Source of the DNA: Aporhodopirellula aestuarii
Lineage (GTDB): Bacteria > Planctomycetota > Planctomycetia > Pirellulales > Pirellulaceae
Reading direction: 5' to 3'
Length of the DNA stretch: 64,000 nt
Assembly: GCF_023701485.1 (NCBI RefSeq)
Contig: NZ_JAMQBK010000028.1
Span: 1-64,000, forward strand
In this document: positions 1,597 through 34,072 of the stretch, one piece after another
How the letters are laid out: every line of letters begins with the position of its first letter
Position numbering within the stretch: the stretch's first letter is position 1
The notes under the pieces: generated by a model
The model's input: only the letters and a program-made list of their open reading frames with translations
Databases searched by the model: none
What the model was told of the DNA's origin: nothing
Made by a program: the position numbers and the translations under genes

Positions 1597-2126
1597 GCGT
1601 TCACCTCTGGGCTGGGTTGCGTCACTTTGGAGTCGATGCATACTCGCAATTGCACACGCAGTCGCGAAAGGGTTGTGCGGATCGAGCCTTGGCGAAATGA
1701 GGCCGAATCAGCGAGTGCTTTTCCTTTGACGTTGTGCCCGTATCGCAGCATTAGGAGCTTTTGCATTCGTTCGGGCAATCGTTGGAAGCAGCGTCGCAAT
1801 GCGTTCCGTTCCCGCCGCCAGGTATCGTCGTCGCCATCGGCCGCGATCATCGCGAGTTCCGCAATCATTTCGCTGAGTCCATTAGACGGGACTTGAGATT
1901 GGCGTCGCCAGTATTGCAGGACCACGTTTCGGGCGATTCCACACGCCCAGGGGACGAAACTCCGGGTCGGGTCGAATCGCTCTTCGTTCTTCAATATTTC
2001 GATAACCGTTTCCTGGAAGAGGTCCTCGGCAACTTCAAAATCTCTCACCATCGAAACGATCACCGCGAGGATGCGTGAACGATTTTCGCTGATGGTCAAA
2101 AATGTCGAAATCGAACATTCGTCCAT
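1593..2126 (-). CDS. ECF-type RNA polymerase sigma factor (Rhodopirellula/Verrucomicrobium type)
   Basis: Sigma-70 family factor with region 2 ('DFEVAEDLFQETVIEIL', then 'FVPWACGIARNVVLQYWRR') and region 4 ('LPERMQKLLMLRYGHNVKGKALAD' in part, with a helix-turn-helix ending 'IRTTLSRLR'). About 177 residues from the ATG at 2126. An in-frame TTG at 2180 would add a Pro/Ser-rich 18-residue tail and is less likely; neither start has a strong ribosome binding site. Its stop overlaps the start of the FecR gene by four bases, so the two are probably translated together. It should direct transcription of an envelope-related regulon under control of the FecR protein, by analogy with FecI/FecR systems; no target is visible here. 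Confidence 0.9.
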   Translation of the reverse strand: MDECSISTFLTISENRSRILAVIVSMVRDFEVAEDLFQETVIEILKNEERFDPTRSFVPWACGIARNVVLQYWRRQSQVPSNGLSEMIAELAMIAADGDDDTWRRERNALRRCFQRLPERMQKLLMLRYGHNVKGKALADSASFRQGSIRTTLSRLRVQLRVCIDSKVTQPSPEVNA

Positions 2127-3280: not shown

Positions 3281-6200
3281 CTACATCAGGTCGTTGTTGA
3301 GTTCCCAAAATGGGATGTCGGAGTCTTCGCTGGCGTCGTCCTCTTGTTCAAACAATTGATCGACCGCTTGGCCCCACTGGTCCGCCGATACTGGGGCGGA
3401 AACCATTTTGGTGTCCATCGAGTCGGAAGCGGTTGTCGTTGAGACAAATGGATTGGAAGTTGTCTCCTCATCGGCAACGGTGCTGAGATCTGACGGCGAA
3501 GGAGGCAAAACAAACAGCGTTTCGGCGTTCGGCTCCGCAGATTGGGAGTTGTCCAGCGAGTTGAGCAAATTGATGATCATCAACGCATCAAGGGCGGTCA
3601 CGTATCCATCGGCGTTGACATCCGCGTAGTCGAGATGCGAGATGTATTTCCGCGTTTGGCTGTCTTGGTCGCTAGTCGGTTCGCCGCTCTGATTGTCTTG
3701 CGAATTGAGTTTGTTAATCACTTGCAGCGGATCAACCGCGGTGATGAATCCGTCACCGTTGACGTCAAAGACGATCTCGCCTTCGCCCCGTTGCGGTACA
3801 ATCTCGCCGTTCAGGCGACCAAAGAGAAGGTTCTCGCCAGAGCCGGCGTTAAGGACGTCGACGGCGAATCCACCCAAGATGATATCGTCCCCGTCGCCAC
3901 CGTTGAGGTTCGCGAGGGTGGGCAAGCGATTGGAGAGTTGATCGTTTCCGTCATTGCCATCGACGGTCACGGTTTCGACGTTGTCAACTTCGATCGGTTC
4001 GAGCGTGCTGTCGCCGGTGATCGCGCCGATCGTGATCCGGTCTGCTTGATCGGTACCGACGACGGTCAGGTGATCGTTCTCTCCATCGCCAGCATCGAAT
4101 GCGATGGCTTGCCGTGACGATTCGATACCAAACGCGATGTTGCTCTCGATGGTGAGCGAATCATTGCCACTGCCGCTGTGGATGCGGAGCGTTTCAACGC
4201 CGAGAGAATCGAACACCTCGTTGGTGCCGGTGGAAAGGATGCCCTCTCCCGGTCCGACGATGAGGTATTGCAAGTCGAGTGCTGTGGTGGCACTGCTGGC
4301 ATCCACGACGACGGTGTCGCCGGTCTGTTGGTTGCGAACTTGCGGTTCGTTCTTCTCACCTGCGGCACTCACCACGATGCCCTCGTGGAACGTGCGGATT
4401 TCGTTTCCGTTTCCGCCGCCGTCGATTAGCAACTGACGTGCGTTTGCGGCATCGTTGAGTCGGCCGAGTGTTCCGTTGGCGTTAGAGCCATCGGCGGTTA
4501 GCAGGAAGCTGTCGTTGCCGCCGTTGCCGTTTAGCTCAACAACGGACGCCGCGAAGACTTCGTTGATGCTAAACGTGTCGTTGTTCGCACCGCCATCGAT
4601 GAAGATGGTTGCAGGTAGCCCTGTGTCCACGGTCGCAGGCGTTACAGAATCGCCGAGGTTGATGACATCATTGCCCGCTTGCGTGCGAACGTCGATTCCG
4701 GAAGACGCACCTCGACCGGAAATCGATACGCTGTCATCTTGATTGCCCGTGTCGACCAAGAGAACGCTGAACGCGCCGGTCGACTGGATGTTGACCGAAT
4801 CACTGCCGCCCTGAGTGGCTACTCGCAAAATGCTATCGTCACCAGTGGTCGCGACGAACACGTTGTCATCACCACCGCCGGTACGAAGCGTCGTTTGGCT
4901 GTCGATAGCTGAGTCCGAGACGTTGATGCTGTCATCGCCATTGCCCGTGGTGATGTCTAGCGTTTCGACCGTTCCGAACGTGATCGTGCCGTAGCCTGAT
5001 CGCGTGAACGTCGTGGACGTCAACGTGTACGCGTTATTTGTTGACGAGGACGAGTCGCTAATGAAGAGTTGATCACCGATCAGGGCGTTGGCGTTGATGG
5101 TTTGGGAACCTGCGACGGCGATACGTGCGGTGACAGATTCGGTCGTCGTGGCAGTTGACGATTGGGAGCCGCCGATGATCGTGATATCGCCGTTGATGCT
5201 GTTCAGCGTTCCGCCATTGGCGGGTGCGTCGGAGGAGATGTAGATTAAATCGTCGCCCGCACCGGCATCGATTGTGATCGGGCTGCCTGACGCGGTGGAA
5301 CGAATTTCGATGACATCGTTGCCGTCGCCGGACTGGATTGAGATTGGCCCCATCGTACCGTCATAGTTCAATGTCGCCCCGTTGATGCTGATCGTTGTCG
5401 AGGTGACGAGAATCGTATCGTTGCCGGTGGTGCCAACCAGCCCCGTGACTCCTCCACCGCCATTACCCGAGACGTTGTTTTCGGCCAAGATGCCGGCGAT
5501 GTTTCGGTAGGTGAGTCCTGTCGAATTGTTGCCGGCAATTTGCGAACCACGAACGTTCAGCGTGCCTAGGTCATTGAACGCACCGGCTCCTTGGTCGGCA
5601 ACGTTGTTGCTGAGTTGCACGTTGGTCAGCGAGACGACGCCGGAACTGTTGAAGACGCCTCCTCCGCCCTGATCGACACCGGTTCCATCGGCTCGGTTGC
5701 CGTCGATTTGGGTGCCGGACACAATCAGAGTGCCTCCCCCGTTCCAAAGACCACCGCCTTCTTCGGAAGCCCTGTTGCCGTTGACGGTTCCGCCAGTAAT
5801 CGTGACATCGGCATCACCGGTGACGTGTAGTCCCCCGCCGTTGCCAGGATTGCTGATCGCAGGAAGTTGGCCCGCGTTGTTGAGATCGAGATTAACGTTG
5901 GTGAGAGTGTTGGTTGTTCCTGGCGTCGTTTCAATCCCGCCGCCGGCTCGGTTGGCTCGGTTGGATTGGACCGTCGAGTTCGTCACGCTGAGTGATCCAA
6001 ACGCGTCGTTCAAAATGCCGCCACCGCTTCCTGACGTGCCGTTGGCTACGTTTGCGATGATCGACGCATTGGTAACATCGAGCACACCGCCGGCGTTGAA
6101 GATCCCGCCGCCGCCCTGGTCGCTGTCGGGGCCGCTCGCGGTGTTGTCTCGGATGGTCGTTCCGGTAATCGTCATTGTTCCTTGGCTGCTGTTCCACAAG

Positions 6201-9200
6201 CCACCGCCCTCTTGTGCGGCGGTGTTGTTTTGGAACAGTCCGTCGTTGACGTGAATCGTCGCTTGGCCGCTGACATGGAGTCCGCCGCCATTGATGCCCG
6301 CCGAATTCCCGTCGACCAGATTGGGTCCGCCAAATGTGGCCGCGTTGAGCACGATGACACCGCCGATCGTTTCGAGGCCGCCACCGGCACGTGCGGCTTG
6401 GTTGCCCGCAACCGTTGCGTTTTCGATCAGGATTTCGCCGCCGAGGTTGAGGATGCCGCCCCCGTTTCCGGATCCATCGATCGCGAGATTGCCACGGATT
6501 TCGGTGCCAGCATCGGCGATGCTGACGACGCCACCGTTGTTGAAGATGCCCCCACCGCCGTCGTCTTGCGACGCAGGCCCGTCCGGATCGAGGGCGATGT
6601 TGTTGGAAATCACGACGCCTTGCCGGATGGTCAATTGGCCACCGTCATTGAAGATCCCGCCGCCACCTTGTGCTGTGTTGGTCGCATCGGTTGAACGCGC
6701 GAGGTTCGCATCGACAACCACGCCGCTGAGCGTCAACGTGCCGTCGGCACTATTCCAAATCCCACCGCCTTCTTGGTCGGCGATGTTGTTTTGCACCAAC
6801 CCGTTGAAGATCGTGGTCACCGCAGAGCCACTCAGGTGGATCCCACCACCGTTGATACCAGCGGTGTTGCCATCGGTAGGCGTAGGGCCGCCAACAGACA
6901 CACCTGACAGCGACACGGATCCATTGTTGTTTTCGATGCCGCCGCCCGCACGAGCGGCGCGGTTGCCTTGAATCACTCCACCGCTGATTGTGACGCCGCC
7001 GCCGACTGTCATCACCCCACCTCCGTTGCCGTTATTGGCAGTGGCGAGGTTGCCCGTGATGGTGGCGTCTGCGATATCGAGTGTTCCGCCGTTGTTGAAG
7101 ATTCCGCCGCCACCCTGGTCATTGCCAGCGTTGTCTAAGGAGTCGGCGGTGTTCTCAGTGATGGTGGTGCCGTTGATGTTTAACCGTCCTTCGCCGTTCC
7201 AGAGTCCACCGCCCTCTTGAGGTGCGGTGTTGGATTGGAACGTGCCGCCGTTAATCGTCACATCGCTCGTGCTACTGGCGTGCAATCCACCGCCGTCGCG
7301 GCCGGTTAGGTTCGATCCCACGAACGCATTATTGACCGTGACGATGCCGCCGACGGTCATCACACCGCCACCGTTTCCGTTGTTCGACGTTGCAAGGTTA
7401 TTCGTAATGCTGGCGTTATCGATGTTGAGTGTTCCACCGATATTGAACACCCCGCCACCACCTTGATCGTTGCCACCGTTGTTAGCCGAGTTGGCAGTGT
7501 TCTGTGTGATGGTCGTGTTGTTGCGAATGGTCATTGTTCCCGGTCCATTCCACAAACCACCGCCCTCTTCCTGGGCGATGTTGTTTTGGATCGATCCACC
7601 ATCGACGATCGTCACGCTCCCCGCGCCACTGGCGTGCAGGCCTCCACCGTTAATGCCAGCTGTGTTGCCATCGGCCACATTGGGCCCGCCAAGGGTGACC
7701 CCTGTGAGCGTGACGTTGCCGTTGTTGTTTTCTACCCCACCGCCTGCTCGAGCCGCTTGGTTGGACTGGATGAGCGTGTCATCAATCGTGACGGTGCCAC
7801 CGACAGTCATCACGCCCCCGCCGTTGCCGTTGTTCGCGGTGGCAAGGTTGCCTGAGATCGTGGCGTTAAGGATGCTGAGCGTGCCATCAACGTTGAACAC
7901 GCCACCGCCGCCTTGGTCATTGTTTGTGTTCGCAGATGAGCTCGCGGTATTGTTGAGGATTTGAGTTCCGTTAATCGTCATCATGCCGGAACCGTTCCAT
8001 AGTCCACCGCCTTCTTCTCCAGCGATGTTGTTCTGGAACAGCCCGCCGTTGACGGTCGTGACGCTGTTAGCGCCGCTGGCGTGCAGACCGCCGCCGTTAA
8101 TTCCGGCGATGTTGCCGACTGCGGCAGCGGGGCCACCCACGGTTTCGTTGGTGACGGTCACGTTGCCGTCGTTGTTTTCGATGCCGCCGCCAGCACGCGT
8201 CGCCTCATTGGACTGGATCGAGCTGTCGTCGATCGTGACGATACCGCCGACCGTCATCACGCCGCCACCGTTGCCGTTGTTAGCAGTCGCGAGGTTTTTG
8301 GTAATCAACGCATTGTCGATGTCGAGTGTGCCGCCGATGTTGAAGACACCGCCACCGCCCTGGTCGTTGCCACCGTTGTTAAGGGAGTTGGCGGTGTTCT
8401 GCGTGAGGGTGGTGTTGTTGCGGATGGTCATCGTGCCAGGTCCATTCCACAGCCCGCCGCCTTCTTCCGCGGCCACGTTGTTTTGGAACAACCCACCGTC
8501 AACGATCGTGATGCTGGCACCACTGGCGTGTAATCCACCACCGTTGATTGCCGCCGTGTTACCGTCGGGCGCGTTCACACCACCGACGGTAACATTCGTC
8601 AGCGTCACGTCGCCGCCATTGTTCTCGATCCCACCACCGGCCCGAGCCGCTAGGTTGCCGGTCAACGTGGTGTTATCCAACGTCACGACACCACCCACCG
8701 TCATCACACCGCCGCCGTTGCCAAGTTTTTCGTTGGCGAGGTTGTTTGTGATGATCGTGTTGTTGCGAATCGTCAGATTTCCGCCAGCATTGAAGATGCC
8801 GCCGCCGCCTTGGTCTGTGCCGCCATCGGCAGCCCTGGCGATGTTGGCGTCGATCATCACGTCATCGATGATCATCGTGCCCGTACTGCTGTTCCACAGA
8901 CCACCGCCTTCTTCGCTGGCGATGTTGCCTTGAACCAAACCGCCCGCGACCGTGACGTTCGCGGTTGCCGTCACATGCAGGCCACCACCGTTTCCGGGAT
9001 TCGGGGCCGTGGCGGTGGTGCCAAGTCCATCGACATCGTTGGTCAGCAGGTTCACATCGGTAAGCGTCACCGTCCCAACGACCACTTCGATACCGCCCCC
9101 GGCACGGTTGGCCGAGTTGCTTTCGATCGTTGTATTGTCAATGGTGACGGTTCCGGCCAACGAGAAAATACCGCCGCCGCTGCCGGAGGTGCCATCGGCT

Positions 9201-12200
9201 TCGTTATCGCTGATGGTCGCGTTGTCGATGTCCAGGATTCCGGAATCGTTGAAGATCCCACCACCGCCGTTATCGGCTCCGTTGCCGCTGGCCGTGTTGC
9301 CGGTGATCGATGTGCCGTTGATGGTCATGGTGCCGCCGCCATTCCACAGTCCACCGCCTTCGGAGGCGGCAGTGTTGCCGGTCACTGTGCCGCGCACCAT
9401 TTCGACATTGCCAGTGCCACTAACATGCAATCCACCACCGTTGCCCGGTCCCGCCAGAGCATGGTTGAGTGACAAGGTCACGTCCGTCAGCGTGGTCGGG
9501 CCGGACCCGTTGGCGATTTCAATTCCGCCGCCAGCCCGATTGGCATCGTTGCCCGTGATCGTCGAGCCGGTGATTGTGAGTGTTCCGGTGCTGAGAATGC
9601 CGCCGCCGCTGGCATTGCCCGTGACCGCCATGTTGCCCGAGATCATGCTCCCACCGAGGATGTTGAGCACGCCGCCGTTGTTGTAGATCCCGCCGCCGCC
9701 ATCCAACGGCGCTGTGCCGCCCGTCGCGGTGTTTCCTGTGACCGATACACCAGACAGGGTCGCCGTTGTCAGTGCCGTCGTCGAGTTGTCGATCAGCAGC
9801 CCACCACCGATGGACGCCGTGTTGCCGGAAATCGTACCGCCGGTGATCGAAACCGTTTCCAACTCCTGCAACCACAAACCGCGGCCGGGTGTGTTGATCA
9901 AGTCAACGTTGGTGAGCGTCACCAAGTCGGTGGACGCGTCGTTGCCCCCGTCGACGATCAACGACGCGGCATACAGAGCATCCAGTGTCGTAACGATGAC
10001 GGCGTCTGCGCCGGTGCCCGCATTCACCGTGACCGAGTTCGTCGGATGAGTGAAGACCACGCTTTCGCCTAGCGTGGAAACGATTTGACTTTGGTTGTCG
10101 CCCGCATCTCCATCATCGGACAGCGTGATCGTCTCATCTCCGCCTGTATACGTGAAAACTCGATCCGTCGCATCGAGATTGTCGATGATCGGTTCCAGCC
10201 CCGTGTAGGTGATCACGGAACCATCAATATCGATCGTGCCGTCATTTTGGTTGGCAAAGGTGTGAACGATGGTCGTGACCGTCCCGTTGTCCAAGACGAC
10301 TGAATCACCGCCGCTGGCGTTTTGGCCGTTGCCGTTGAAAAATAAACCTTCCGGAGGAATTGGTGTGCCATTGGAATAGTCCACCGTGAATGTGTCATTC
10401 CCGTCGTTGCCATTGATTGTCAGCTTAGGAATGTTTGCTGTCGGTTGTGACAGCACCGTAACCCCATCGATGATGACGTCGGTGTTTCCGCCATTAATGA
10501 CGACGCGGATGTCATTGTTATTGCCGTCCGCTTCGATGGTGAATTCGGATACGTTGGCAAACAGGAACGTCTCAAAATTGACATGACTGATTGGCTGCAT
10601 CCCGTCCACGGTCAACACATTGCCATTGAGATTCAGACCACTGTTCATGGCGTCCAGGTTCAACGTGTCTCCAGGCAGGTTCGTCGGGTCGCCGCCATCA
10701 AGATGGATCGTCGTTGCTCCGCTGGCCGTTATATTCACGGTGTCATTGCCCAGACCACCCTCGACACTCAGGTCTTCCAGTGTGGTGCTGAATTGAACAA
10801 TTTCACCGAGCGTGGTGTTGTCAACAAATCCGTTTGCACCATCAATCGTGAGCGTCTCGTTCGCATCAGTAGCCACGAGCGTGGCGTTGTCCATTCCGCC
10901 GATCGTATCATCGATCTCGACGCCGCCGATTAACCGCCCGAAGAAGATTTGATACTCATCGCTGCCGTCACGACCATCCAGTTTGATCGCATCGACGGTT
11001 TGTCCCACACCAGGATTCAAGATCAAAAGGTCTTCATCGCTGCCCATGGCATCGGCGGTCGCGATATCGCCCGTGCTGACGATCGTGCCCAGCAATGAAA
11101 TCACGGTCCCAACGCCGACGTCCGCGTCGCCGAAATCGCTCATCAATTGGACCGTGTCCCCCGAAACCGTCGATCCATCTTCCAGCAAGAGATCGTCGCC
11201 CGCCCGCAGCGTGACCGAACTGGCGTCCGCCCGCACCGTCACGCCGGAATGCACCGTTAGGTCGTCGCCGGTTGTCGTTGAATCCGTTGCCGTTAATGAG
11301 ATCAATCCCAATGCGGAAATCGTATCCGCGCTGACCGTCAGCGGACTGAGTGCGGTGACGACGATGTTGCCACCTGCCAAAATGCCACTGCCCGCTGGGA
11401 AGGGAGCCGCCAATGCGGGTAGGTCGCTGATCGTCAGATCGCCGGTGTTGGACACCCAAACTCCATCATCGACGTTCGGTCCCGTGGTCGCGGATAACGC
11501 GGCAACGCTCGTGTCCAGGAAGTTGCTTCCGGCAGCGATGAATGAGCCTGACTGCAGGGTCAATTCTGCGGCCGTGACGTCGTTGTCATCGGGGCCGGCA
11601 TCGCCATCCGTGATCGCGGCAGCCGACTGCAGATGCACGCGACCCATTGCCGATACATCAGCAACGATCAAGTCGCCCGCGGTCGTTGTCAGCGACGCGC
11701 CGCGGCCAGGCCCGCCTGCGGATACGTTCGTTGCCGTCAGCTGTCCACCCGATCGCAGCACAATCACCCCGTCAACTGTCGTCACATTCGAAGCGATGAC
11801 GTCATCCGAGTCGCTGATCCAGATCCCATGCATGCCCGGGTTCGGTGCCAACAATGTCGTCGCAGTCAGGTTGTCGACATCGACGTCCAGATCACCGGCC
11901 ATCGGCGCACCAATGTCGACCAGCGCCGTCAGCATGGCCGTCTGCGCAGTGATGTCGGGATTGGTATCCCCATTCTCAAGAATGCTACCGCTGAGTGATT
12001 CCACGATGACCATCGTGCCAATCAGTCCGGTCAACAGCACGTCATCCGTCGCGTCGAGATTCACGTTTCCTGTGCCCGCGTCCACTTGGACGCCATCATC
12101 GATGGTCAGCCCGCCACCATCTACCAAGTCGCTGTCGGCGGTAAGTAGAATGTTGCCCCCGATCGAAAGCACTTCGTCGCTGACGATCACGTGACCGGTC

Positions 12201-15200
12201 GACGAGATGGCGACTTGTCCTCCAAACGTTCGGACGCCAAAGTCGAGAGGGAAACCGAGTGGGCCAAGCACGTCGATCAGCGTGACGTCTCCCTGATTGT
12301 CGATAACCAAGTCGCCGCCTCCAGTGGAAGCGTCCGCTTGCAATTGACTGGCCTGCGTTTCAATCGGATCCGCCAACATACCGACTCCGGCAACACCGAG
12401 TAGGAAGGCTGACGCGGTTCCTGAACCACGATCGTCCACATCCAGCCCCGGTCCATCCACATCCAAGATCGCCCCGAGGTTCGATCCGACCAACACCTTG
12501 CTGCTCGAACGCAACAGACTGATCGAAATATCTTCGCTGGCTTCGATAAAGATATCCCCGTCCCAGGCGTCGACGAGCGATCCGTCTGCCATCATCACAC
12601 CGCCAACATTGTCCCCATCGCCGTCCGCTTTAATACTGATTTGGGGGGGGGCGGCTCCAAAGACACCGATCTGCACATTACTGCCCGCTTCGCTGTCGAT
12701 GACAGCGTTCGCGGTCAGCAGCACGTTGTTATCGGCGGCAATTTCGATCAACCCATTGCCGCTGAGCACCGACGCGTTGATCGTTATGTCGCCACCGGTG
12801 GGCAAGAAGATCAAACCGGTTTCAAGTTCGATGTCGCCGCCGCTTGAGTCGATCGTTTCATCGACGGTCAAATTGCCGCTGACACTGTACAGTTCAATGT
12901 CGCCGCCGGTCGTGCTGACGCCATCGATCCCGCTGATGCCGCCGACCGTCAAATCGCCTTGATTCCAAACCGCGAACCTGCCGCTGCCACCGACCCCTTC
13001 GAGTGCATTGACTTGCACGTTCAAGGGGTTTCCGCCCGCTGTTCCGACAAATCCGGGGGCGTTGAGAATCAGTTCGTTCGCTGTGATATCGACAAGATTC
13101 GATCCGGCCGTTTCAATTGCCGATGATAACGCAGTGAGGGTTGCATTTCCGGTTGTCAGCAAACCGGCCGAGTTGAAAACCACTGCTCCTGAGGTGATGT
13201 CCGCGTTGCCGCTTCCCAAATCCGTAGGGGCGTTTTGAAAGGCAACAAAATCATCGCCGTCAGAGCGTATGGTCAGGTCAGCATCAAACAATGCATCCAG
13301 CCCCTGGACCAGTACAGCATCAGTCCCTGCACCGGTGCCGAAATTGGTCGTGATCGTCAGCGACACGTTGGGCGTTGCAAAATCGAGCAGCTCGCCTTCC
13401 GTGGAATCGATCCGGGAAAAATTGTCACCTACCGCAAGGACATCGGACAAGGTGATGATCTCGGAGTTTGCCGAGACGAAATTGAGCACGAGGTTATCGA
13501 TATCGGTTCCCGTGAAGTCGATCGGTTCCAATCCGGTATAGGTGATTACCGAACCATCCAGGTTGATCGAGCCGTCATTCGGGTTCTCGAAATCAAGCGT
13601 CCCGTCCGTAAACGTCCCGCCCGTTACCACCAAATCATCACTGTCGTCGCCGCCATGGAACACGATTGGGCTCTGGATGATGCCACCATTGTGGTCGATG
13701 TTCAGCACGTCGTCGCCACCACGTGTCGTCACCCGGATCTCGCCGGTGACATCGGTGATGGGCACCAGAATGGAATTCGGACCGTCCTGGGTTGTTCCGG
13801 GGCCTGCCGACATGCCGTTGACCGGATCGGTTAGTCGATAGTTGTCGCCATCCACCACGATGGTTACCGCATCGTCTTGAGAACCATCGGGATCATCGAT
13901 GATCAAGTTGCCATTTACATCAATCTGCGCATCGAAATCGTCGTTAATGATCGTGCCGACACCCTGAGTGCCCAACGTCACATCGCGGCCAAAGGCAAAC
14001 AAATTGCTTAACAGCAAATTGATCGTCTCATTCGGTTCCACCTTATCGTCCGCGATTGTGGGAATGTTCACGGTGATCACTGGGTTTGTGTCACCGGGGG
14101 ACGATAGAGTGATTGTACCCACCAAACCTTGGTAGTCATTGTCGAGCAACGTCGCCGAACCATCCGAGAGGTCAATGTCAACAAACACGGAGACATCAAT
14201 CGGATTGCTGAAGGTGACCACAAACTGTAGTGGTCCCGCATCTTCGAAATCGGATGGGCTGGAGACGTCGATAGTCGCAGAGTCATCGTTCGAGATTGTT
14301 CCTTCGGCTGTGCCGGGCGTCCCCAACACGTAGCCCGTTCCGGCATCAATCGTCATCACGACTTTTTCGTCCAGTTCGACGGTCGAATCGACTGACGGAT
14401 CGATCGTCACCATGGCGGTATCCATGCCGTCAAAAATCGTCACCGTACCGGAATTACCTGTCATGGTCGCGCCGCTGACCGTGTAATCGTCATCGATCAC
14501 CGCATCGCCGCTGAGCGTGAAGTTCACCGTCAAGTCGCCAGTCGTGTTGTCGCGAGTGAAGGTGTAAACCAAATTGTCAGGGCCGTCTTCGAAGACACTG
14601 TCCGGCGAGACCGCCACACTGACCGCACCCCCAACGGTCAAAACCACATCGTTGCCATCGCCGCCGACGTAGCTAATCGAGGCCGGTAAGCCGCTACCGA
14701 GGAAGTCGGCAATTGTTGCACCTTCAGCTAGTCCACTAAACGATCCGGTGACCGCATCGGCGCCGTCATTGCGGATTATGATCAATTCGTCGCCAGCACT
14801 GGGGGTATTCGCTCCTGTCGTAGTGGAAACGAAGGCGACATTCGTTCCAATCGTCACGGTACCCGTGACGTCGATTTGGTCATGAAAGCCCGGCCCAGTT
14901 CCCGCCGCAGTTCCATCGAACTCGAACGTGTAGGTGTCGTTATCGGCAAACGTAAAATTGCCGGTCACCGTCAAAACTCCAGGTGACTGGCCGGGCGAGA
15001 CATTGCCGTCGAGCGTAACGGAGTTCGTGCCTGCGTCGATGTCCGTGCCAGCGTTGTCGTTGATCGTACCGCCAGCGATCGTGATCGGGTCGGTGAACGT
15101 CACCGTGTCGATATCGACTGTTCCCGTACCGGCGGCCGTATCGCCGATGGTGATCGAGTTGAAGCCGTCAACAAGAAAGCCGAGTTCTGTGTCGTCAAGA

Positions 15201-18200
15201 TTGAGGTCACCGGTGCCGCCGCCAAGGCCGATAGTCGTGCCGGGTGTGCGTGGCTGAATGACCAGATCGCCGGTGGACTGAACAGTTAGGTTTTCCCATT
15301 CGATCGAGTCCGCATTGATCGTGACGTTACCGGTCGACAACGAACCGCCAATCACGTTGTCGATGTTCTCGACCTTCATGCCCGACCCCGTGCTCGTTCC
15401 GCTTGCCTCGGCAATGATCTCCACCACGCCGTCGCCGATTGATCGGATCTCGCCTTCAAACAACCGCACTCCTGCCGCGGCCCCGCCGTTGCTGATTCCA
15501 TCGATCAGTAAATTACCTGCGTCGATCTGAACCGTCGACCGAAGTACCGATACGCCGGCGCTGGCAACGGATGTTGGGTCGGCCGTGCCGCCAGCTCCGG
15601 TCAGGCTGATGTCGCCTTCTGCGCTGATGATATTACCGCTGGAGATCCGCAGCCCCGCGTTATCAAAGACTCCGTTTCCGGCCGTTCCGTTGAGCGTGAT
15701 CGTTGCTGCGTCGGCGCCGGTCCCGGTGGATTCAATGCGGTCGATGTCGTCGATTTCGATGCCATAGTTGCTGCTGCCACCATCCGTCCCTACACCGGTG
15801 ATCATGATGTTACCATCGACGCTGGTGATGAACGCGTTGGAATCGGTGAGCGTGACGCCGCGGCTGCCGGACGCACCGCCGCCGGCCTGCCCGTCTATCG
15901 TGACCGTGCCCGCGGTCGGACCTGTGCCCGTCATGCTGACCCGGCCCTGGAACAGAACGCCCGCGCCGCCCAACTGTCCGCCGCGGCCGGTGACCGTCAC
16001 ATTGCCTGTGCCGGTGACGTTGACCGTGGCGCCGAGTGCCGCCGCCGTTCCGGCGGTTGAGCCGGCAAACGTTCCCGACGCGTTACCCTCGACCGTTAGG
16101 TTGCCGTTGACAAAGCTGAACGGCCCGGCGCCCGAAACACTGGCCTGGCGGGTTGCAGTGACGGTTAGATCGGCATTGCCCATGTTCACCGGTAGGGCGC
16201 CACTGAACGACATGCTATCACTGCCTGTGCCGCCGTCGATCATCACACCGCCGACAGAATAGTCCGCAGCCGCGGCATTGATCCACAACAGCATGTCGTC
16301 GCCGCCCAGCGTGCGGACGTCGAGGCCCGTCACACCGGCGGCGGGAACGGTTACCGAGGTCGTCCCCGATCCGGTCGACCCGGGAATCGACGACGCGTCG
16401 ATGATGTTTCCGTTGACTTCCGTAAACTGGTAGGTCGTGCCAAGCAAAAATACCTGCAGATTGTCGTCGCTGGTGCCGCCGTTGACGTCGACGACCGTCA
16501 GTGTGTCGCCGACTAGGGTGATCTCCGTTTCGACGGGTGCGGAGGTTAGCACGACGACATCATCGCCGTCGCCACCGGCGTAGGAGATAGTTCCGTTTAA
16601 ACCGGAGCCGAGGAAGTTTGGGAGCGTTGCGCCTTCGGGCAGGCCAGCGAACGTTCCGAATCCGCCGTCGCGGTTGATGATTTCAATCGTCTCGCCGCCG
16701 GTGAGCGTGGCTCCGAAACCGCCGAAGTCAACCGCTGACAGCGTTACTCCGGTTCCGATGGACACCGAGCCCGCCGCATTGATTTGATCGTGGAAACCCG
16801 CGCCGCTGCCAGCCGTCGCACCGCCGATGTCGACGGCAAAGCTGCTGTTGTCGGCAAACACGACGTTGCCTGCGGTCGCCGTCAGGATACCGGGCACACC
16901 GGGCCCGGGACCAACGTTGCCGGTTATCAAGATCGTGCCCGGAACGTTCGGTGGATCGGTTTGGGCGGATGCGGTGACATTTACAGCGCGGACAAAATCG
17001 CCGCCGTTGTTGCTGAAACTGCCAAGGGTCACGACTCCAGGGCCAGTTGTCAGCGAATTGGCTGTAACGATCAAGTCAAAGCCCGCCGCCGATGCCGAGA
17101 TCGTGGCATCGCCCAAATCGACGGCGCCCGGATTGACGAAGAACGAATTGGAGGTCAGCGTTACCGAAGCACCAAGCTGAACGTCTCCGGCGATTTGAAA
17201 TGTGTCGGCGCTGAAGTCTCGAGTGGAGGTGATGTCACCGTTCAGACTGACGATTCCGTCCGTGGCGGAACCCGTTGCATCCACGATGACGATACCAGCT
17301 TCGACCTGCTGTAACGAGACGTCACCACCCACTCCACCGCCCGTCGACGTGTCGATGAAGAATTGGTGCTGCGTACTGCCCGAAACGTTGCCGGTGATAG
17401 TCACCGATCCAGCGTCACCGTTGTCGCCATCTTCGGTATCAATGCTGATGTCGGACATGTGATCAACGGTCCCGTTGAGCCACACATCTCCACCATCGGT
17501 CTGCAGCGTCCAAACACCGGTGAGCAGATCGATCGTTTCCGTGCTGATAGTCAGGTTGCCTGTGCCGAGCTTGATCGTGCCCGTGGGCCGGAAGGTATCT
17601 GCGTCCGCTTCCCCGTCGATGATCAGGTCGGCATTCCAGGCCGCGTCGAGGCTGGATAGGACGATGGTGTCGTCGCCGCTGCCCGCGTTGATCGTCAGCG
17701 ATCCACTGGGAACGGACATGTCAAGCAGTTCGCCAGCCGAGGAGTTCACGCGAATCACGCCGTCACCGGGCGTCTCGTCGGTAATGTCAATCGTCTCCAT
17801 GCCACCGTTGAACGTGAGGATCACGTCGGAGAAGGTGCCGCCGAATGAGATCGGCTCCAATCCCGTATAGGTCAGATTCAAATCACCTTGTGTGATGTTT
17901 CCATCGTTGACATTGTCGAACGTGAACGCGGCGGGCAGATTTGGTGCGTTGAGCAAAGTGATCGCGTCGTTGCCTCCGGCACCACCGTTAAAGGTGGTGG
18001 GAATACCGAGAATCGGGTTGCCGCTCGCAAAATCAATTTGCAGTGTGTCATCATCTGCGTCGTTGCCATTGATTACTAACGAGGTCGCGTTGGAAGCGTC
18101 GACTCGTGCGATTTCGACACCTCCCCGGGTGATCACAAATTCGTTCCCGTCACGGGTTAATATCGATGTGCCGCTGCCGGCGGGCAAGTCGATCGTGAGG

Positions 18201-21109
18201 GGACCGACATCCGCCGCGATAGCGATCTTGTAGTCCTCCACCTCACCGTCGACGGCCACGCCGGTCGGACCGGACGTGCCTGCCGAACTTAAGCGGAAAC
18301 GCGCAAACGTATCGCCAACGGACGCACCCGTTGGGATGTCAAAGCTCAGCGACTTCGTTCCAGCGGTTGGGCCAAGGTCGCGACCGCTTGCGATTTCTTC
18401 CGATGCTTCAAACAGGCCGTTTTGATCAAAGTCGATCCATGCGTCGAGCAAATTAGTTGCGCCGGGATCTTGTAACTCGACGAGAATGGTTGCTTGCTGT
18501 CCCTGGACCAACGTACTGGGGAAGGTGACGCCGTCTTCATCATCGGTCACGTGGTTGTCATCGCCATCGGCGTCCGCCGTGAAGAAAGTAGAGGCCTCAA
18601 TGTCGCGCGCAGGACCCAAGTGGGCTCCGAGGCCGACATGAAAAACCTCGCCATAGCTGGCGGGCGCATCGCCGAAGTCGAGTTCAGCGGGCAGCGTGAT
18701 TGGATGCGTGTGGCTGGGGATCTGAGTGATATTGAGTGTGTTCGTTTGCGTGCCCGACTTCTGGCCAAGCCGGAAGTTGCTCAGACCAGGGCCCTGGCCT
18801 TCACCCATCACGACGCGGCCGCGGAAATCGGGTAGGCCAAAGGTTGTGCGACCATCGCCGCCATAGGTCGTGCCGACGAGCGAGAAGAGTGCATCGTTCG
18901 AGCTAATGGCAAGCAGTTGTCCATCCGTCAGGGCCCAGCCGCGCGGGTTGAAATTGCCTGCGAACATCCCGACCTCGGCATAGGCGGGTGTCACATCCAA
19001 GTAACTCGTTACTTCCTCATGATCCGCGTCCGAGTGCTCGCTTCCCAGGTTCGCCAATAGGGTCGCATCGGGATCAACCCGACTACCGACGCTGAGCCCT
19101 CCATACATCAACCCTCCGGGCAAAAACGTGTGTTCGATTCCCAGCAAGTGACCTTGCTCGTGCATGATCGCGGTCAACAGGTCGTAGTGCCGGTACGATT
19201 CGTCTGTCGTACCAACCCATTCACCGGTGCGGGGATCGACGTCGCCAAATTCCATGTCATCTCCAGGCGTGGCGTCGACGAACCAGCCGCGACCCGACGC
19301 ATCGCGATCGAGCGTAATCAATCCTGCGTCGGCCGCTGCCAAGCGACCTGGGGCCAGATCGCGAAGCCGCAACTCGACCGACTCCAGTGCAACGACCTGT
19401 TCGGACGTGATCCCGGCGGCTTCCCACCGCTCGATCCCCTCGGCAAACAGAGCCTCGATGAGCGGTAGCGCTGCCGACTCTTCCAACTGGGTCGTGCCGC
19501 TGATAAAGCCCACACCCTCGGTATCTTCATTGGCAGAATCGTCCGAGCCACCTGCGTCCAAACTGCGTGATGGAAAGACTCCAAATAGCGAAATATTGTA
19601 ATTGAGCGCCAGGTAGGGCATGTGGTTTTCGATGCTCTGACTGGCACCCACACGTCCCGTTGGGTTTGTTAAACCGTCAACAAGGTGATTGTGAGACGGC
19701 AATTGACTCTCGCTCAACGTCACGTACTCCGTGCCACCCTTCTCGCCGAGCCGTACGGGGGACAGTCCTGGCCCGTTACCAGCATGAATGGGCGTGCGGC
19801 CACGTAGGTCGGGCAGGCCAAACGTGGTACGTCCGTCGCCGCCGTACGTGGTCCCCAGTATCGAGAACAAGGCGGTGTTTTGCGAGATTGGGAGTATCGC
19901 GCCGTTCGCTTGGGAAAAACCACGTGGCACAAAATTCCCTGCGAACCAACTCACGCTGCCCAAGAGCGGGTCGCTTGCCAAATCGAGATCAGGGAAGTCG
20001 CCAGCAGCCGAAACCACGGGGGTCATGACCAGGAATGGCTGACGATTGTCAAACTGCGCGTCACCCGTTGCACCCGTATTATCAAGGCCGGCAACGGTGT
20101 GGCTATGCCCTGCCAGTTGGTTCTCAGTGAGCGAGACCCGCTCGATGCCACCTTTCTGACCGAGGGTATAGTTTTCTAGCTCCGGTCCTTGCCCCACACC
20201 CACTGGCACGCGCCCACGCAAATCCGGCAGCGCAAAGTTGTCTACTCCGTCGCCACCATAGGTTGTGCCCAGGATCGAATAGAGAGATTGATACTGATTG
20301 ATGGGCAGGACTTGACCGTGTGCTAGCGCATAGCCCCTAGGTGCGAAGGTAGCCGCAATCATCTGCACGCCGCCCAGGAGAGGTTGACCGCCCAAATTTC
20401 TCGATGGGAAATCACCTTGCAATGCGATCACATAATTGGTCGTCGCATACGGCTGCAGGTTGTTGAAGTCTTGCCCGCCACCGCTCGGATTGGATGTCAG
20501 GAACTCTTCGTCTGTCAGTGAACCCGCAATCGAACCATCGGCTTGTCCGTCAATCGGCAAACGTCTGATGCCAGCACCAAGAGCTTCCGACATCACGTTG
20601 CCGCCAGTAACCACTACGCCATCAAGGCCCAACGCATGACCTTGCTCGTGCAATAACGCGGTCAGCAAATCGATCTTTGCATCGGCAAGCGTCGCCGTAT
20701 CGGCGATCAGCGTGCCATCCAGTTCGAGGAACTCTTCGTTGACCAGCGGCGTCTGATCCACAAACCACAGATTCCCCGCCGCGTTGTCATCGATCGTGAT
20801 TTGGCCCGGTTGATACAACGCCAGCTTGTTGCCGCCTAAGTCGGCGACCTGATAATCCAGATCCTGTAGAGCAGCGAGTTGGTCGCTGGAGATGCCTGCT
20901 GACTCCCACAGTCCGGTTGCATGCTCGGCGAGCTGACGGGTTTCCTCGATACTGACCATGCCAGAGTCGGCGGCGAGCAAGCGGCGATCTTCGAGTGACT
21001 CGACGTGACGTTGTAGGGTTCGCCGGCGATCGGATCGCAGCCGTTCCCTTTTGGCTTGATTCCGTGTTTGAGTTCGGGTATTCCAAGCGGTTCTCAGCCA
21101 GTCAGTCAT
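3281..21109 (-). CDS. Giant multidomain surface protein: metzincin-like motifs, tail-collar domains, GEVED, Calx-beta, Pmp-like repeats, dockerin
   Basis: 5,942 residues, presumably exported. The basic N-terminus ends in VESLEDRRLLAA (about 36-47), the planctomycete extracellular-protein signature. Order: metzincin-like motif HEQGHALGLDG at 154-164; tail-collar (microcystin-dependent-protein-like) domain about 233-345; second collar about 385-475; second metzincin-like motif HEQGHLLGIEH at 650-660; third collar about 709-805; GEVED domain about 837-965; long Gly/Asp/Thr-rich beta repeats to about 2160; two Calx-beta domains about 2164-2390; further repeats with a poly-C tract near residue 2820; Pmp-like parallel beta-helix repeats about 3730-5230 with nine 'GGGLWN/GGGIWN' units; and dockerin-like calcium loops near 5774-5800 and 5824-5852 (DVNGDGFITAVD, DVNADGYVTALD). 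The likely role is adhesion or surface display; protease activity is plausible only for the second motif. No internal stop is seen. The gene is single-copy in the window and has no coupled neighbour. Confidence 0.9.
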   Translation of the reverse strand: MTDWLRTAWNTRTQTRNQAKRERLRSDRRRTLQRHVESLEDRRLLAADSGMVSIEETRQLAEHATGLWESAGISSDQLAALQDLDYQVADLGGNKLALYQPGQITIDDNAAGNLWFVDQTPLVNEEFLELDGTLIADTATLADAKIDLLTALLHEQGHALGLDGVVVTGGNVMSEALGAGIRRLPIDGQADGSIAGSLTDEEFLTSNPSGGGQDFNNLQPYATTNYVIALQGDFPSRNLGGQPLLGGVQMIAATFAPRGYALAHGQVLPINQYQSLYSILGTTYGGDGVDNFALPDLRGRVPVGVGQGPELENYTLGQKGGIERVSLTENQLAGHSHTVAGLDNTGATGDAQFDNRQPFLVMTPVVSAAGDFPDLDLASDPLLGSVSWFAGNFVPRGFSQANGAILPISQNTALFSILGTTYGGDGRTTFGLPDLRGRTPIHAGNGPGLSPVRLGEKGGTEYVTLSESQLPSHNHLVDGLTNPTGRVGASQSIENHMPYLALNYNISLFGVFPSRSLDAGGSDDSANEDTEGVGFISGTTQLEESAALPLIEALFAEGIERWEAAGITSEQVVALESVELRLRDLAPGRLAAADAGLITLDRDASGRGWFVDATPGDDMEFGDVDPRTGEWVGTTDESYRHYDLLTAIMHEQGHLLGIEHTFLPGGLMYGGLSVGSRVDPDATLLANLGSEHSDADHEEVTSYLDVTPAYAEVGMFAGNFNPRGWALTDGQLLAISSNDALFSLVGTTYGGDGRTTFGLPDFRGRVVMGEGQGPGLSNFRLGQKSGTQTNTLNITQIPSHTHPITLPAELDFGDAPASYGEVFHVGLGAHLGPARDIEASTFFTADADGDDNHVTDDEDGVTFPSTLVQGQQATILVELQDPGATNLLDAWIDFDQNGLFEASEEIASGRDLGPTAGTKSLSFDIPTGASVGDTFARFRLSSAGTSGPTGVAVDGEVEDYKIAIAADVGPLTIDLPAGSGTSILTRDGNEFVITRGGVEIARVDASNATSLVINGNDADDDTLQIDFASGNPILGIPTTFNGGAGGNDAITLLNAPNLPAAFTFDNVNDGNITQGDLNLTYTGLEPISFGGTFSDVILTFNGGMETIDITDETPGDGVIRVNSSAGELLDMSVPSGSLTINAGSGDDTIVLSSLDAAWNADLIIDGEADADTFRPTGTIKLGTGNLTISTETIDLLTGVWTLQTDGGDVWLNGTVDHMSDISIDTEDGDNGDAGSVTITGNVSGSTQHQFFIDTSTGGGVGGDVSLQQVEAGIVIVDATGSATDGIVSLNGDITSTRDFSADTFQIAGDVQLGASVTLTSNSFFVNPGAVDLGDATISASAAGFDLIVTANSLTTGPGVVTLGSFSNNGGDFVRAVNVTASAQTDPPNVPGTILITGNVGPGPGVPGILTATAGNVVFADNSSFAVDIGGATAGSGAGFHDQINAAGSVSIGTGVTLSAVDFGGFGATLTGGETIEIINRDGGFGTFAGLPEGATLPNFLGSGLNGTISYAGGDGDDVVVLTSAPVETEITLVGDTLTVVDVNGGTSDDNLQVFLLGTTYQFTEVNGNIIDASSIPGSTGSGTTSVTVPAAGVTGLDVRTLGGDDMLLWINAAAADYSVGGVMIDGGTGSDSMSFSGALPVNMGNADLTVTATRQASVSGAGPFSFVNGNLTVEGNASGTFAGSTAGTAAALGATVNVTGTGNVTVTGRGGQLGGAGVLFQGRVSMTGTGPTAGTVTIDGQAGGGASGSRGVTLTDSNAFITSVDGNIMITGVGTDGGSSNYGIEIDDIDRIESTGTGADAATITLNGTAGNGVFDNAGLRISSGNIISAEGDISLTGAGGTADPTSVASAGVSVLRSTVQIDAGNLLIDGISNGGAAAGVRLFEGEIRSIGDGVVEIIAEASGTSTGSGMKVENIDNVIGGSLSTGNVTINADSIEWENLTVQSTGDLVIQPRTPGTTIGLGGGTGDLNLDDTELGFLVDGFNSITIGDTAAGTGTVDIDTVTFTDPITIAGGTINDNAGTDIDAGTNSVTLDGNVSPGQSPGVLTVTGNFTFADNDTYTFEFDGTAAGTGPGFHDQIDVTGTVTIGTNVAFVSTTTGANTPSAGDELIIIRNDGADAVTGSFSGLAEGATIADFLGSGLPASISYVGGDGNDVVLTVGGAVSVAVSPDSVFEDGPDNLVYTFTRDNTTGDLTVNFTLSGDAVIDDDYTVSGATMTGNSGTVTIFDGMDTAMVTIDPSVDSTVELDEKVVMTIDAGTGYVLGTPGTAEGTISNDDSATIDVSSPSDFEDAGPLQFVVTFSNPIDVSVFVDIDLSDGSATLLDNDYQGLVGTITLSSPGDTNPVITVNIPTIADDKVEPNETINLLLSNLFAFGRDVTLGTQGVGTIINDDFDAQIDVNGNLIIDDPDGSQDDAVTIVVDGDNYRLTDPVNGMSAGPGTTQDGPNSILVPITDVTGEIRVTTRGGDDVLNIDHNGGIIQSPIVFHGGDDSDDLVVTGGTFTDGTLDFENPNDGSINLDGSVITYTGLEPIDFTGTDIDNLVLNFVSANSEIITLSDVLAVGDNFSRIDSTEGELLDFATPNVSLTITTNFGTGAGTDAVLVQGLDALFDADLTIRSDGDDFVAFQNAPTDLGSGNADITSGAVVFNSAGLLTTGNATLTALSSAIETAGSNLVDITANELILNAPGFVGTAGGNPLNVQVNALEGVGGSGRFAVWNQGDLTVGGISGIDGVSTTGGDIELYSVSGNLTVDETIDSSGGDIELETGLIFLPTGGDITINASVLSGNGLIEIAADNNVLLTANAVIDSEAGSNVQIGVFGAAPPQISIKADGDGDNVGGVMMADGSLVDAWDGDIFIEASEDISISLLRSSSKVLVGSNLGAILDVDGPGLDVDDRGSGTASAFLLGVAGVGMLADPIETQASQLQADASTGGGDLVIDNQGDVTLIDVLGPLGFPLDFGVRTFGGQVAISSTGHVIVSDEVLSIGGNILLTADSDLVDGGGLTIDDGVQVDAGTGNVNLDATDDVLLTGLIGTMVIVESLSGSILENGDTNPDITAQTAMLTALVDIGAPMAGDLDVDVDNLTATTLLAPNPGMHGIWISDSDDVIASNVTTVDGVIVLRSGGQLTATNVSAGGPGRGASLTTTAGDLIVADVSAMGRVHLQSAAAITDGDAGPDDNDVTAAELTLQSGSFIAAGSNFLDTSVAALSATTGPNVDDGVWVSNTGDLTISDLPALAAPFPAGSGILAGGNIVVTALSPLTVSADTISALGLISLTATDSTTTGDDLTVHSGVTVRADASSVTLRAGDDLLLEDGSTVSGDTVQLMSDFGDADVGVGTVISLLGTIVSTGDIATADAMGSDEDLLILNPGVGQTVDAIKLDGRDGSDEYQIFFGRLIGGVEIDDTIGGMDNATLVATDANETLTIDGANGFVDNTTLGEIVQFSTTLEDLSVEGGLGNDTVNITASGATTIHLDGGDPTNLPGDTLNLDAMNSGLNLNGNVLTVDGMQPISHVNFETFLFANVSEFTIEADGNNNDIRVVINGGNTDVIIDGVTVLSQPTANIPKLTINGNDGNDTFTVDYSNGTPIPPEGLFFNGNGQNASGGDSVVLDNGTVTTIVHTFANQNDGTIDIDGSVITYTGLEPIIDNLDATDRVFTYTGGDETITLSDDGDAGDNQSQIVSTLGESVVFTHPTNSVTVNAGTGADAVIVTTLDALYAASLIVDGGNDASTDLVTLTNVDLINTPGRGLWLQELETVSITGGTISGNTASIGGGLLIDNSTTALTTATLSGVSVTGNTATGGTAPLDGGGGIYNNGGVLNILGGSMISGNMAVTGNASGGGILSTGTLTITGSTITGNDANRAGGGIEIANGSGPTTLTDVTLSLNHALAGPGNGGGLHVSGTGNVEMVRGTVTGNTAASEGGGLWNGGGTMTINGTSITGNTASGNGADNGGGGIFNDSGILDIDNATISDNEADGTSGSGGGIFSLAGTVTIDNTTIESNSANRAGGGIEVVVGTVTLTDVNLLTNDVDGLGTTATAPNPGNGGGLHVTATANVTVAGGLVQGNIASEEGGGLWNSSTGTMIIDDVMIDANIARAADGGTDQGGGGIFNAGGNLTIRNNTIITNNLANEKLGNGGGVMTVGGVVTLDNTTLTGNLAARAGGGIENNGGDVTLTNVTVGGVNAPDGNTAAINGGGLHASGASITIVDGGLFQNNVAAEEGGGLWNGPGTMTIRNNTTLTQNTANSLNNGGNDQGGGGVFNIGGTLDIDNALITKNLATANNGNGGGVMTVGGIVTIDDSSIQSNEATRAGGGIENNDGNVTVTNETVGGPAAAVGNIAGINGGGLHASGANSVTTVNGGLFQNNIAGEEGGGLWNGSGMMTINGTQILNNTASSSANTNNDQGGGGVFNVDGTLSILNATISGNLATANNGNGGGVMTVGGTVTIDDTLIQSNQAARAGGGVENNNGNVTLTGVTLGGPNVADGNTAGINGGGLHASGAGSVTIVDGGSIQNNIAQEEGGGLWNGPGTMTIRNNTTITQNTANSANNGGNDQGGGGVFNIGGTLNIDNASITNNLATSNNGNGGGVMTVGGIVTVNNAFVGSNLTGRDGGGLHASSTSDVTINGGTFQSNTAPQEGGGLWNGEGRLNINGTTITENTADSLDNAGNDQGGGGIFNNGGTLDIADATITGNLATANNGNGGGVMTVGGGVTISGGVIQGNRAARAGGGIENNNGSVSLSGVSVGGPTPTDGNTAGINGGGIHLSGSAVTTIFNGLVQNNIADQEGGGIWNSADGTLTLSGVVVDANLARSTDATNTAQGGGGIFNDGGQLTIRQGVVISNNIALDPDGPASQDDGGGGIFNNGGVVSIADAGTEIRGNLAIDGSGNGGGILNLGGEILIENATVAGNQAARAGGGLETIGGVIVLNAATFGGPNLVDGNSAGINGGGLHVSGQATIHVNDGLFQNNTAAQEGGGLWNSSQGTMTITGTTIRDNTASGPDSDQGGGGIFNAGGVLDVTNASIIANVANGTSGSGGGILNDAFGSLSVTNSTVQSNRANRAGGGIETTPGTTNTLTNVNLDLNNAGQLPAISNPGNGGGLHVTGDADVTITGGTVNGNRASEEGGGLWNGGGTLIVSGTQIDGNRADGTGVDQGGGGVFNSSGVVSLTNVQLSNNVADQGAGAFNDLGTLNVRGSQIAGNNSTGLTYRNIAGILAENNVSGNGGGGVTGLVGTTGNDTILVTSTTISINGATLNYDGTMGPISIQSGDGNDVIEIRSTASGSPITIDAGAGDDLIYISSDAPANGGTLNSINGDITIIGGSQSSTATTTESVTARIAVAGSQTINANALIGDQLFISDSSSSTNNAYTLTSTTFTRSGYGTITFGTVETLDITTGNGDDSINVSDSAIDSQTTLRTGGGDDNVFVATTGDDSILRVATQGGSDSVNIQSTGAFSVLLVDTGNQDDSVSISGRGASSGIDVRTQAGNDVINLGDSVTPATVDTGLPATIFIDGGANNDTFSINEVFAASVVELNGNGGNDSFLLTADGSNANGTLGRLNDAANARQLLIDGGGNGNEIRTFHEGIVVSAAGEKNEPQVRNQQTGDTVVVDASSATTALDLQYLIVGPGEGILSTGTNEVFDSLGVETLRIHSGSGNDSLTIESNIAFGIESSRQAIAFDAGDGENDHLTVVGTDQADRITIGAITGDSTLEPIEVDNVETVTVDGNDGNDQLSNRLPTLANLNGGDGDDIILGGFAVDVLNAGSGENLLFGRLNGEIVPQRGEGEIVFDVNGDGFITAVDPLQVINKLNSQDNQSGEPTSDQDSQTRKYISHLDYADVNADGYVTALDALMIINLLNSLDNSQSAEPNAETLFVLPPSPSDLSTVADEETTSNPFVSTTTASDSMDTKMVSAPVSADQWGQAVDQLFEQEDDASEDSDIPFWELNNDLM
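5430..9920 (-). repeat. Nine-copy ~450-bp higher-order repeat inside the giant gene
   Basis: The landmark 'attcca/gttcca..ccaccgcc', which encodes the GGGLWN motif on the minus strand, recurs at 5741, 6191, 6751, 7196, 7547, 7994, 8444, 8891 and 9341. Spacings are 450, 560, 445, 351, 447, 450, 447 and 450 bases. Six of eight are within 5 bases of 450, so the unit is ~150 residues. One unit is short by ~100 bases and one is long by ~110 bases. Each unit contains several shorter ~25-30-residue rungs of Asn/Gly-rich sequence such as 'QGGGGIFN', 'GNGGGVMTVGG' and 'RAGGGIENN'. Confidence 0.9.
12643..12651. repeat. Poly-G/C homopolymer of nine within the giant gene
   Basis: A run of nine G on the plus strand is nine C in the coding strand, around codon 2820, in the context Gly-Ala-Ala-Pro-Pro-Gln. 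The frame is intact at nine. A gain or loss of one base would truncate the protein before the Pmp-like repeats and dockerin region. Confidence 0.8.
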
Positions 21110-33885: not shown

Positions 33886-33973
33886 TGGGGCGATCGATTG
33901 ACGATGGGAGAGCAGAGTTGCTTCCCATCATAGCCACGGTGGTCACGATTCGCCAAACACCCCCTGCCCGATT

Positions 33974-33985
33974 CGAACGAGCGTT
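33974..33985. repeat. Short match to the REP-element tail
   Basis: CGAACGAGCGTT here is identical to the 3' tail of both REP palindromes (21463-21474, 22302-22313). The long palindrome itself is absent, so this may be a remnant or chance. It is followed by TCCGGCCGGA, a short palindrome. Confidence 0.3.
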
Positions 33986-34072
33986 TCCGGCCGGATAAGC
34001 CGACGTCCTGGGCCGCTAGACGAAGGGGGAATGGGAAACTCCCGAAGGAGTCGTCCTATCGAAATCACGCCG

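Follow-up and report, generated by a model that had tools for sequence, protein, structure and literature searches.

A giant planctomycete protein with a fused, permuted triple-collar module and two metzincin-like domains

The giant gene and its surroundings

The stretch of DNA analyzed here (the window, 64,000 nucleotides) carries, on its minus strand, a single open frame without stops for the protein of 5,942 residues that had been predicted from the sequence (Table 1). The order proposed at that stage (metzincin-like, collar, collar, metzincin-like, collar, GEVED and so on to a dockerin) holds by Pfam, and the collar and protease segments, which could have failed to match their families, both exceeded the cut-offs. 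The Collar family (PF07484) matched three stretches, with 242 bits (E 2.9e-73, cut-off 24) for the whole protein and 86-93 bits for each stretch. Matrixin (M10) matched two stretches, with 35 bits (cut-off 24), and the second domain, M10b, reached 25.0 bits (cut-off 24) when searched alone. Among the later domains, GEVED and the dockerin scored above their cut-offs, but Calx-beta fell below. The GGG[ILV] array is real (46 units in residues 3501-5100, against a mean of 3.1 and a maximum of 8 in 200 shuffles), but its description as Pmp-like found no counterpart in Pfam, where no Pmp family was listed at E<=1 for the repeat-bearing piece. Searching the giant protein against NCBIfam gave only matches below the cut-off.

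Table 1. Features of the giant protein and two neighbouring genes, with positions in the window
Feature	Residues	Position	Strand	Basis or remark
Giant protein	5942 aa	3281..21109	-	Single open frame
Planctomycete extracellular (LEPxxR-like) motif, VESLEDRRLLAAD	36-48	20966..21004	-	PF07595 19.6 bits, below cut-off 25.5
Metzincin-like domain 1 (M10a), HEQGHALGLDG	53-188	20546..20953	-	Without third Zn ligand
Permuted strand 0, DFNNLQPYATTNYVIALQGDFPSR	214-237	20399..20470	-	Model strand at 221-229
Collar 1, HSH at 335-337	245-339	20093..20377	-	Pfam
Strand 1, NRQPFLVMTPVVSAAGDFP	355-373	19991..20047	-	Alignment and model
Collar 2, HNH at 473-475	383-477	19679..19963	-	Pfam
Strand 2, IENHMPYLALNYNISLFGVFPSR	493-515	19565..19633	-	Alignment and model
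Metzincin-like domain 2 (M10b), between strand 2 and collar 3	540-690	19040..19492	-	Pfam M10
Collar 3, HTH at 800-802	711-804	18698..18979	-	Pfam
GEVED domain	889-962	18224..18445	-	Pfam E 4.8e-15
Calx-beta-like stretch	2288-2377	13979..14248	-	24.8 bits, below cut-off 27
GGG[ILV] repeat array (Pmp-like by eye)	3768-5153	5651..9808	-	47 units, at 3768-5149
Dockerin type I (Dockerin_1)	5781-5850	3560..3769	-	Pfam 52.1 bits, two stretches
Neighbour, SASA-family esterase-like protein		22317..24227	-	Also adjoins the remnant in R. rubra
Neighbour, FecR + CBM96 protein		331..1641	-	Pfam

The ten neighbouring ORFs were assigned by Pfam to FecR/CBM96, SASA, DUF2695, ALDH, sigma-70 regions, PCMT, Ppx/GppA and HAD, with two lacking a family. 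This Pfam scan found no phage family among them, and none of the adjacent tail or structural genes that mark a prophage. Elsewhere in the window, ARAGORN identified a tRNA-Asp gene with the anticodon ATC (33957-34031); the usual tRNA-Asp anticodon is GTC.

An origin as a prophage or tail-fibre remnant, or as a recently captured phage gene, would fit the matches of the giant protein to PHROG and Pfam tail families and those of residues 201-815 to 284 phage records. All of these records are below 60% identity (33-40% in the rows listed), and none of the 284 covers 80% of the query at one place. In 80 viral loci, taken from at least 576 relatives, one collar was found in 66 cases, two in eight, three in five and six in one; the collar ORFs comprised 101 with a single collar and one with two, and none with three. 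The motif HExxHxxGxx[HD] occurred in no collar ORF of these 80 loci, its sole match being a non-collar ORF of L114. In the source genome (9.07 Mb) collar matches are confined to one place. Given the neighbourhood and the lack of a viral three-collar ORF in this set, we rejected the prophage explanation, which appears extremely improbable. The label "phage tail collar" used in the original prediction is only a Pfam name: the segments that flank the collars resemble those of bacterial collar proteins that stand alone, and the neighbours scanned include no phage family. Three loci labelled viral (L099, L100 and L101) contain three or six adjacent collar genes of ~180 aa, as in triads of bacteria, and are possibly bacterial DNA that was binned wrongly.

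The dockerin, with its two matched stretches, has potential partners in the same genome, which yielded 28 dockerin matches and three cohesin matches, the latter at one locus on contig C57 (L206 8427-9593 and 9796-10398; G000:C57:56214-56567). When the ORFs were examined with Pfam, cohesin was found in two of the three; for the third, which is the large cadherin ORF, Pfam did not list it. Both confirmed cohesin ORFs are small and start with an RRLLA-type leader like that of the giant protein, and a giant ORF with 12 cadherin stretches adjoins the locus. Because of the three cohesin matches at one locus and the 28 dockerin matches, this looks like an extracellular cohesin-dockerin system, and it is plausible from the sequence that the C-terminus of the giant protein is held by a cohesin.

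Residues 1-810 were compared with 60 relatives, 20 of which matched, most of them to the metzincin alone. A search for the same order in planctomycetes, suggested together with the original prediction, found it in one other genus: a 1,564-aa ORF of G020 (same family) contains the whole order, with 56% identity over residues 1-815. An N-terminus produced by chance or by an assembly chimera was rejected on this ground. The C-terminal half of the G020 protein differs, comprising DUF11, two galactose-binding-like stretches and a third metzincin (Pfam). Genome G050 encodes a triple without metzincin, followed by a dockerin-like repeat pair and a PEP-CTERM-like end, both recognized by eye and neither listed by Pfam. 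In Rhodopirellula rubra, taken to be the same-genus genome G003, an N-terminal remnant in two frames lies beside the SASA gene (L034 9958-11018, NZ_JACHXU010000004.1) and runs directly into a segment that shares 45% identity with the final 71 codons, the locus being ~17 kb shorter than in the window; this copy of the giant gene is internally deleted and decayed. It was the one relative recovered by the search of genome contigs, and apart from G003 no same-genus genome of the family search contained collars.

The three collars constitute one permuted module

Residues ~214-804 form one fused triple-collar module with a permuted arrangement, strand-collar repeated three times instead of collar-strand repeated three times. 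The linker ahead of collar 3 holds M10b, the degenerate M10a precedes the module, and the long repeat region and the dockerin follow it. The comparison on which this is based comprised 14 fused ORFs (the giant protein, G020, L036 and L079-L089) and 28 split proteins (L037 and L091-L098). L090/G382, whose triple is divided between two ORFs, was dropped from the fused set. L188/G826 (two plus one) and the incompletely covered L094 and L098 were dropped from the triad set, and L195 had no collar by the collar profile.

An HxH motif follows the collar in all 70 units compared (42 in the 14 fused ORFs and 28 split), including all three of the giant protein, and the six histidines are invariant in a 12-row alignment of fused ORFs. 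Reading of the alignments revealed that each of the 28 split proteins ends with a segment like NMQPYLALNYIIALxGxFPSR, and that in 14 of 14 fused ORFs a strand segment precedes each collar. No such segment directly follows collar 3 in the fused ORFs, five of which have 24-32 residues left there. Relative to the split proteins, the fused ORFs are therefore circularly permuted by one strand. The giant protein lacks the order of split bacterial (Mdp-like) collars, in which the collar is followed by a C-terminal QPY...FPSR strand; it is a permuted relative of these proteins and no plain member.

The linker that connects the third strand segment to collar 3 varies in length, and holds a metzincin in the giant protein and in G020. 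The alternation of collars and proteases noted in the original prediction is better read as one fused triple with metzincin 2 in the linker, because 12 other fused triple-collar ORFs exist in which no metzincin was detected; for the same reason the metzincin is dispensable for the module.

Collars were found in 38 of 392 genomes sampled across the phylum, 23 of 396 in the order and 18 of 241 in the family, the three samples overlapping. Three collars at one locus, encoded either by three adjacent genes of ~180 aa or by one ORF, were present in 9/38, 14/23 and 8/18 of the collar-bearing genomes, respectively. More than one collar per locus occurred in 28 genomes, 27 of which have three (G544 twice three) and one of which (G162) has two; G691, with weak matches more than 1 kb apart in long ORFs, was left out of this count.

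The collars might nevertheless be three independent beads, each acting alone or trimerizing with the collars of other chains, so that their number would reflect copy number only. Single-collar genes are common (the only match in 25/38, 7/23 and 8/18 collar-bearing genomes), and three collars are thus not obligatory. In a collar tree, split triads L091, L093, L095 and L097 are not sorted by gene position, but the first, second and third genes of L037, L092 and L096 fall into separate groups, with weak support. This tree, built on 96 columns, has one starred branch of 67, for which reason few of its pairings were used. The predominance of three collars in multi-collar genomes and the permuted strand order also speak against independent beads, as does the AF2 model of a metzincin-free triple. 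This model (L079, 433 residues) has a pLDDT of 73.9 and a pTM of 0.76, although 106 residues have pLDDT <50, and the N-terminal strand is among its ordered parts. On the side of the beads, Foldseek found nothing in the PDB for L079 at E<=1e-3. On balance we regard them as less likely than a single-chain pseudo-trimer.

A structure prediction of the N-terminal region had been proposed earlier. The AF2 model of the giant protein (pLDDT 62.8, pTM 0.55) shows collar blocks at ~80-98 with three ordered strands, and pLDDT values of <50 for most of both M10 domains, the alignment there consisting of two rows; an alignment with isolated M10 rows, badly split by MAFFT, was left out of folding. A Foldseek search of BFVD gave 64 matches, four of them at E<=1e-3, with low TM-scores (0.09-0.25); one row is named MdpB.

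In the T4 short tail fibre gp12, according to the parts of PMC3004832 consulted, three chains contribute His445 and His447 to the binding of a metal that lies on the three-fold axis. The fused-collar profile matched gp12 with E 2e-6, and cyanophage fibre 8kec with E 2e-9, across the HxH of the latter. As the gp12 alignment stops before the HxH, we infer the equivalence to His445/447. Taken with the pTM value and the six histidines, gp12 suggests that the three collars may pack with three-fold symmetry.

Metzincin-like domains

M10b possesses the full metzincin signature HExxHxxGxxH (HEQGHLLGIEH at residue 650), followed by a Met (LMYGG). The corresponding motif of M10a (HEQGHALGLDG at residue 154) has G at the position of the third ligand and thus departs from HExxHxxGxxH/D; this ligand is absent from M10a of R. 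rubra too, while M10a of G020 reads HEQGHALGLSH. Judging by the motif, M10a is probably no active enzyme. An Asp replaces His as third ligand (HExxHxxGxxD) in the M10 relatives L009, L011, L015, L027, L028 and L033. All 14 members of the M10 alignment matched PF00413 at E<=0.01, and the best solved relative of the M10 profile is karilysin (E 8e-7, active-site half only).

The planctomycete-type M10 profile has two strong matches in the source genome, both in the giant protein, and one weak match elsewhere, at a place that strongly matches the Pfam matrixin model. As background, this profile gave two matches in G025 (8.9 Mb), one in G359 (5.0 Mb), four in G863 and 32 in G789, and PF00413 gave six in G025 and three in G359. 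The 32 matches of G789 (9.2 Mb, several contigs) lie in many cases in giant ORFs.

That one chain contains two metzincins as well as three collars could be explained by a recent internal duplication of a metzincin-collar block, and residues ~100-480 and ~600-805 had been described as such a duplication. M10a shares 36% identity with M10b, a lower value than with the separate domain loc013 (45%). In the M10 tree, M10a pairs with M10a of G020 (100/98) and M10b with M10b of G020 (100/99). In the collar tree, collars 1 and 3 pair with collars 1 and 3 of G020 (SH-aLRT 82 and 91), and collar 2 groups with its G020 counterpart and one more row (86). These trees and the low M10a/M10b identity, together with the existence of fused triples without metzincin, led us to reject a recent duplication as very unlikely.

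Ten complete split-triad loci of planctomycetes were available (L037, L091 with two triads, L092, L093, L095, L096, L097, L186, L187 and L189), not all of them independent. In four of these ten an M10-bearing ORF lies ~0.2-1.1 kb away, as found with a profile that included the L037 domain: upstream on the same strand in L037 and L186 (same genus), facing in L187 and downstream in L095. These ORFs have 1,030-2,234 codons, three being cut by the end of the stretch. No M10-bearing ORF was found in the compared stretches, some of them short, of five single-collar loci (L190-L194) and 12 metzincin-free fused loci.

It is possible, though we think it the less probable option, that the metzincins serve in maturation or structure rather than as effectors, with M10b processing the giant protein itself or both domains inert. 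The missing third ligand of M10a, in the giant protein as in R. rubra, and the scatter of M10-like domains among giant planctomycete ORFs would suit such a role, but M10b, like that of G020, retains HExxHxxGxxH and the following Met.

Collar triads, a proposed function and known systems

Among the records examined, collar triads annotated as tail fiber proteins were present in four or more bacterial phyla. In a plasmid collection 70 records matched the triple. Seven plasmid loci (Aminobacter, D. ficus, Ruegeria, Ensifer, Deinococcus QL22, Phyllobacterium and Paenibacillus), chosen by hand and not at random, each contain three separate collar ORFs and, within three genes of these, an open frame of at least 920 codons. 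No M10 domain was found in the seven loci, whose large genes were mostly covered in part; the large Aminobacter protein, covered whole (4,158 aa), had no Pfam match. A GNAT-like ORF, identified with a profile built from L037 and five of the seven plasmid loci, lies near eight of the ten planctomycete triads (L037, L091-L093, L095, L096, L186 and L187), six of the seven chosen plasmid triads (L196-L198, L200, L202 and L203) and three of five single-collar loci (L190, L192 and L194), and near none of the 14 fused triples within the stretches compared. In L037, the collar triad and the GNAT gene are separated by a gene (8390-8866) for a DUF6916 protein with a twin-arginine-like leader, recognized by eye.

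What other bacteria often encode as three neighbouring genes is thus present in the giant protein in fused form. Since similar parts are separate genes elsewhere, the giant gene joins a multi-gene module into one chain, and this fusion, with the adjacency of triads to genes for large proteins, ties collar triads to the cell surface. The giant protein itself is probably surface-exposed.

We lean, with modest confidence, towards a secreted adhesin-like giant with a single-chain pseudo-trimeric collar tip, a stalk and a dockerin anchor. The three collars would fold together into a tip with three-fold symmetry, resembling the C-terminal head of T4 gp12. The N-terminal strand would close this tip, and a single metal ion, bound by six histidines (335/337, 473/475 and 800/802), would pin it. 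This N-terminal tip could serve as a receptor-binding head of the phage-fibre type and bind a surface ligand, probably a glycan. The remaining ~5,000 residues, the repeat stalk, would present the tip, and the dockerin, by binding a cohesin on the cell surface, would anchor the opposite end. From its place on the tip, M10b might cut a bound or a neighbouring protein.

More tentatively, we hypothesize that phage-type fibre tips have been domesticated in several bacterial phyla into a so far undescribed cell-surface system of three collar genes, a large surface protein and often an acetyltransferase. In some planctomycetes the three subunits would have been fused and circularly permuted into a single-chain pseudo-trimer whose six histidines bind a metal, and here the tip would also have acquired a metzincin, giving a "bind and cut" surface machine made of one polypeptide. 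No description of the giant-protein architecture or of a role for collar triads was found among the papers listed from the CC-licensed PMC literature, the body of work searched.

The closest known proteins are the stand-alone bacterial collar proteins annotated as "tail fiber protein", which we take to be Mdp (microcystin-dependent protein). They share with the giant protein the collar unit of ~96 residues, the HxH and the QPY...FPSR strand, and are often encoded by three adjacent genes; the giant protein differs in being fused and permuted, with an inserted metzincin, in a chain of 5,942 aa. The planctomycete fused ORFs L036 and L079-L089 have the same permuted strand-collar triple and six histidines, but 10 of these 12 are only 480-617 aa long and no metzincin was detected in them. 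Their ends vary: Pfam placed a dockerin above the cut-off in L082 and PEP-CTERM below it in L084 and L088, and the end of L036 resembles dockerin and PEP-CTERM by eye.

With the head of gp12 the giant protein shares collar sequence and the logic of the HxH; gp12, however, consists of three chains with a C-terminal head, whereas here the collars are near the N-terminus of one chain in a bacterial gene context. Karilysin and other M10 matrixins have the same HExxHxxGxxH and Met region, but the M10 domains of the giant protein belong to a planctomycete group found in giant proteins, and the match covers the active-site half only. Huge dockerin-bearing extracellular proteins of Planctomycetota are comparable in size class and dockerin, but the passages of PMC11573180 compared contain no collar/metzincin architecture. 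The MAT fibres of Bdellovibrio, as described in the parts of PMC10769870 consulted, are likewise bacterial surface proteins related to phage fibres, with trimeric tips for recognition; they are made of three chains with S74 or other tips, and the word collar does not occur in that paper. The MAT superfamily is characterized by a conserved N-terminal domain of ~130 aa and a trimeric beta-helix. A single-chain circularly permuted trimer, if true, would be an unusual way to assemble the trimeric tip of a fibre.
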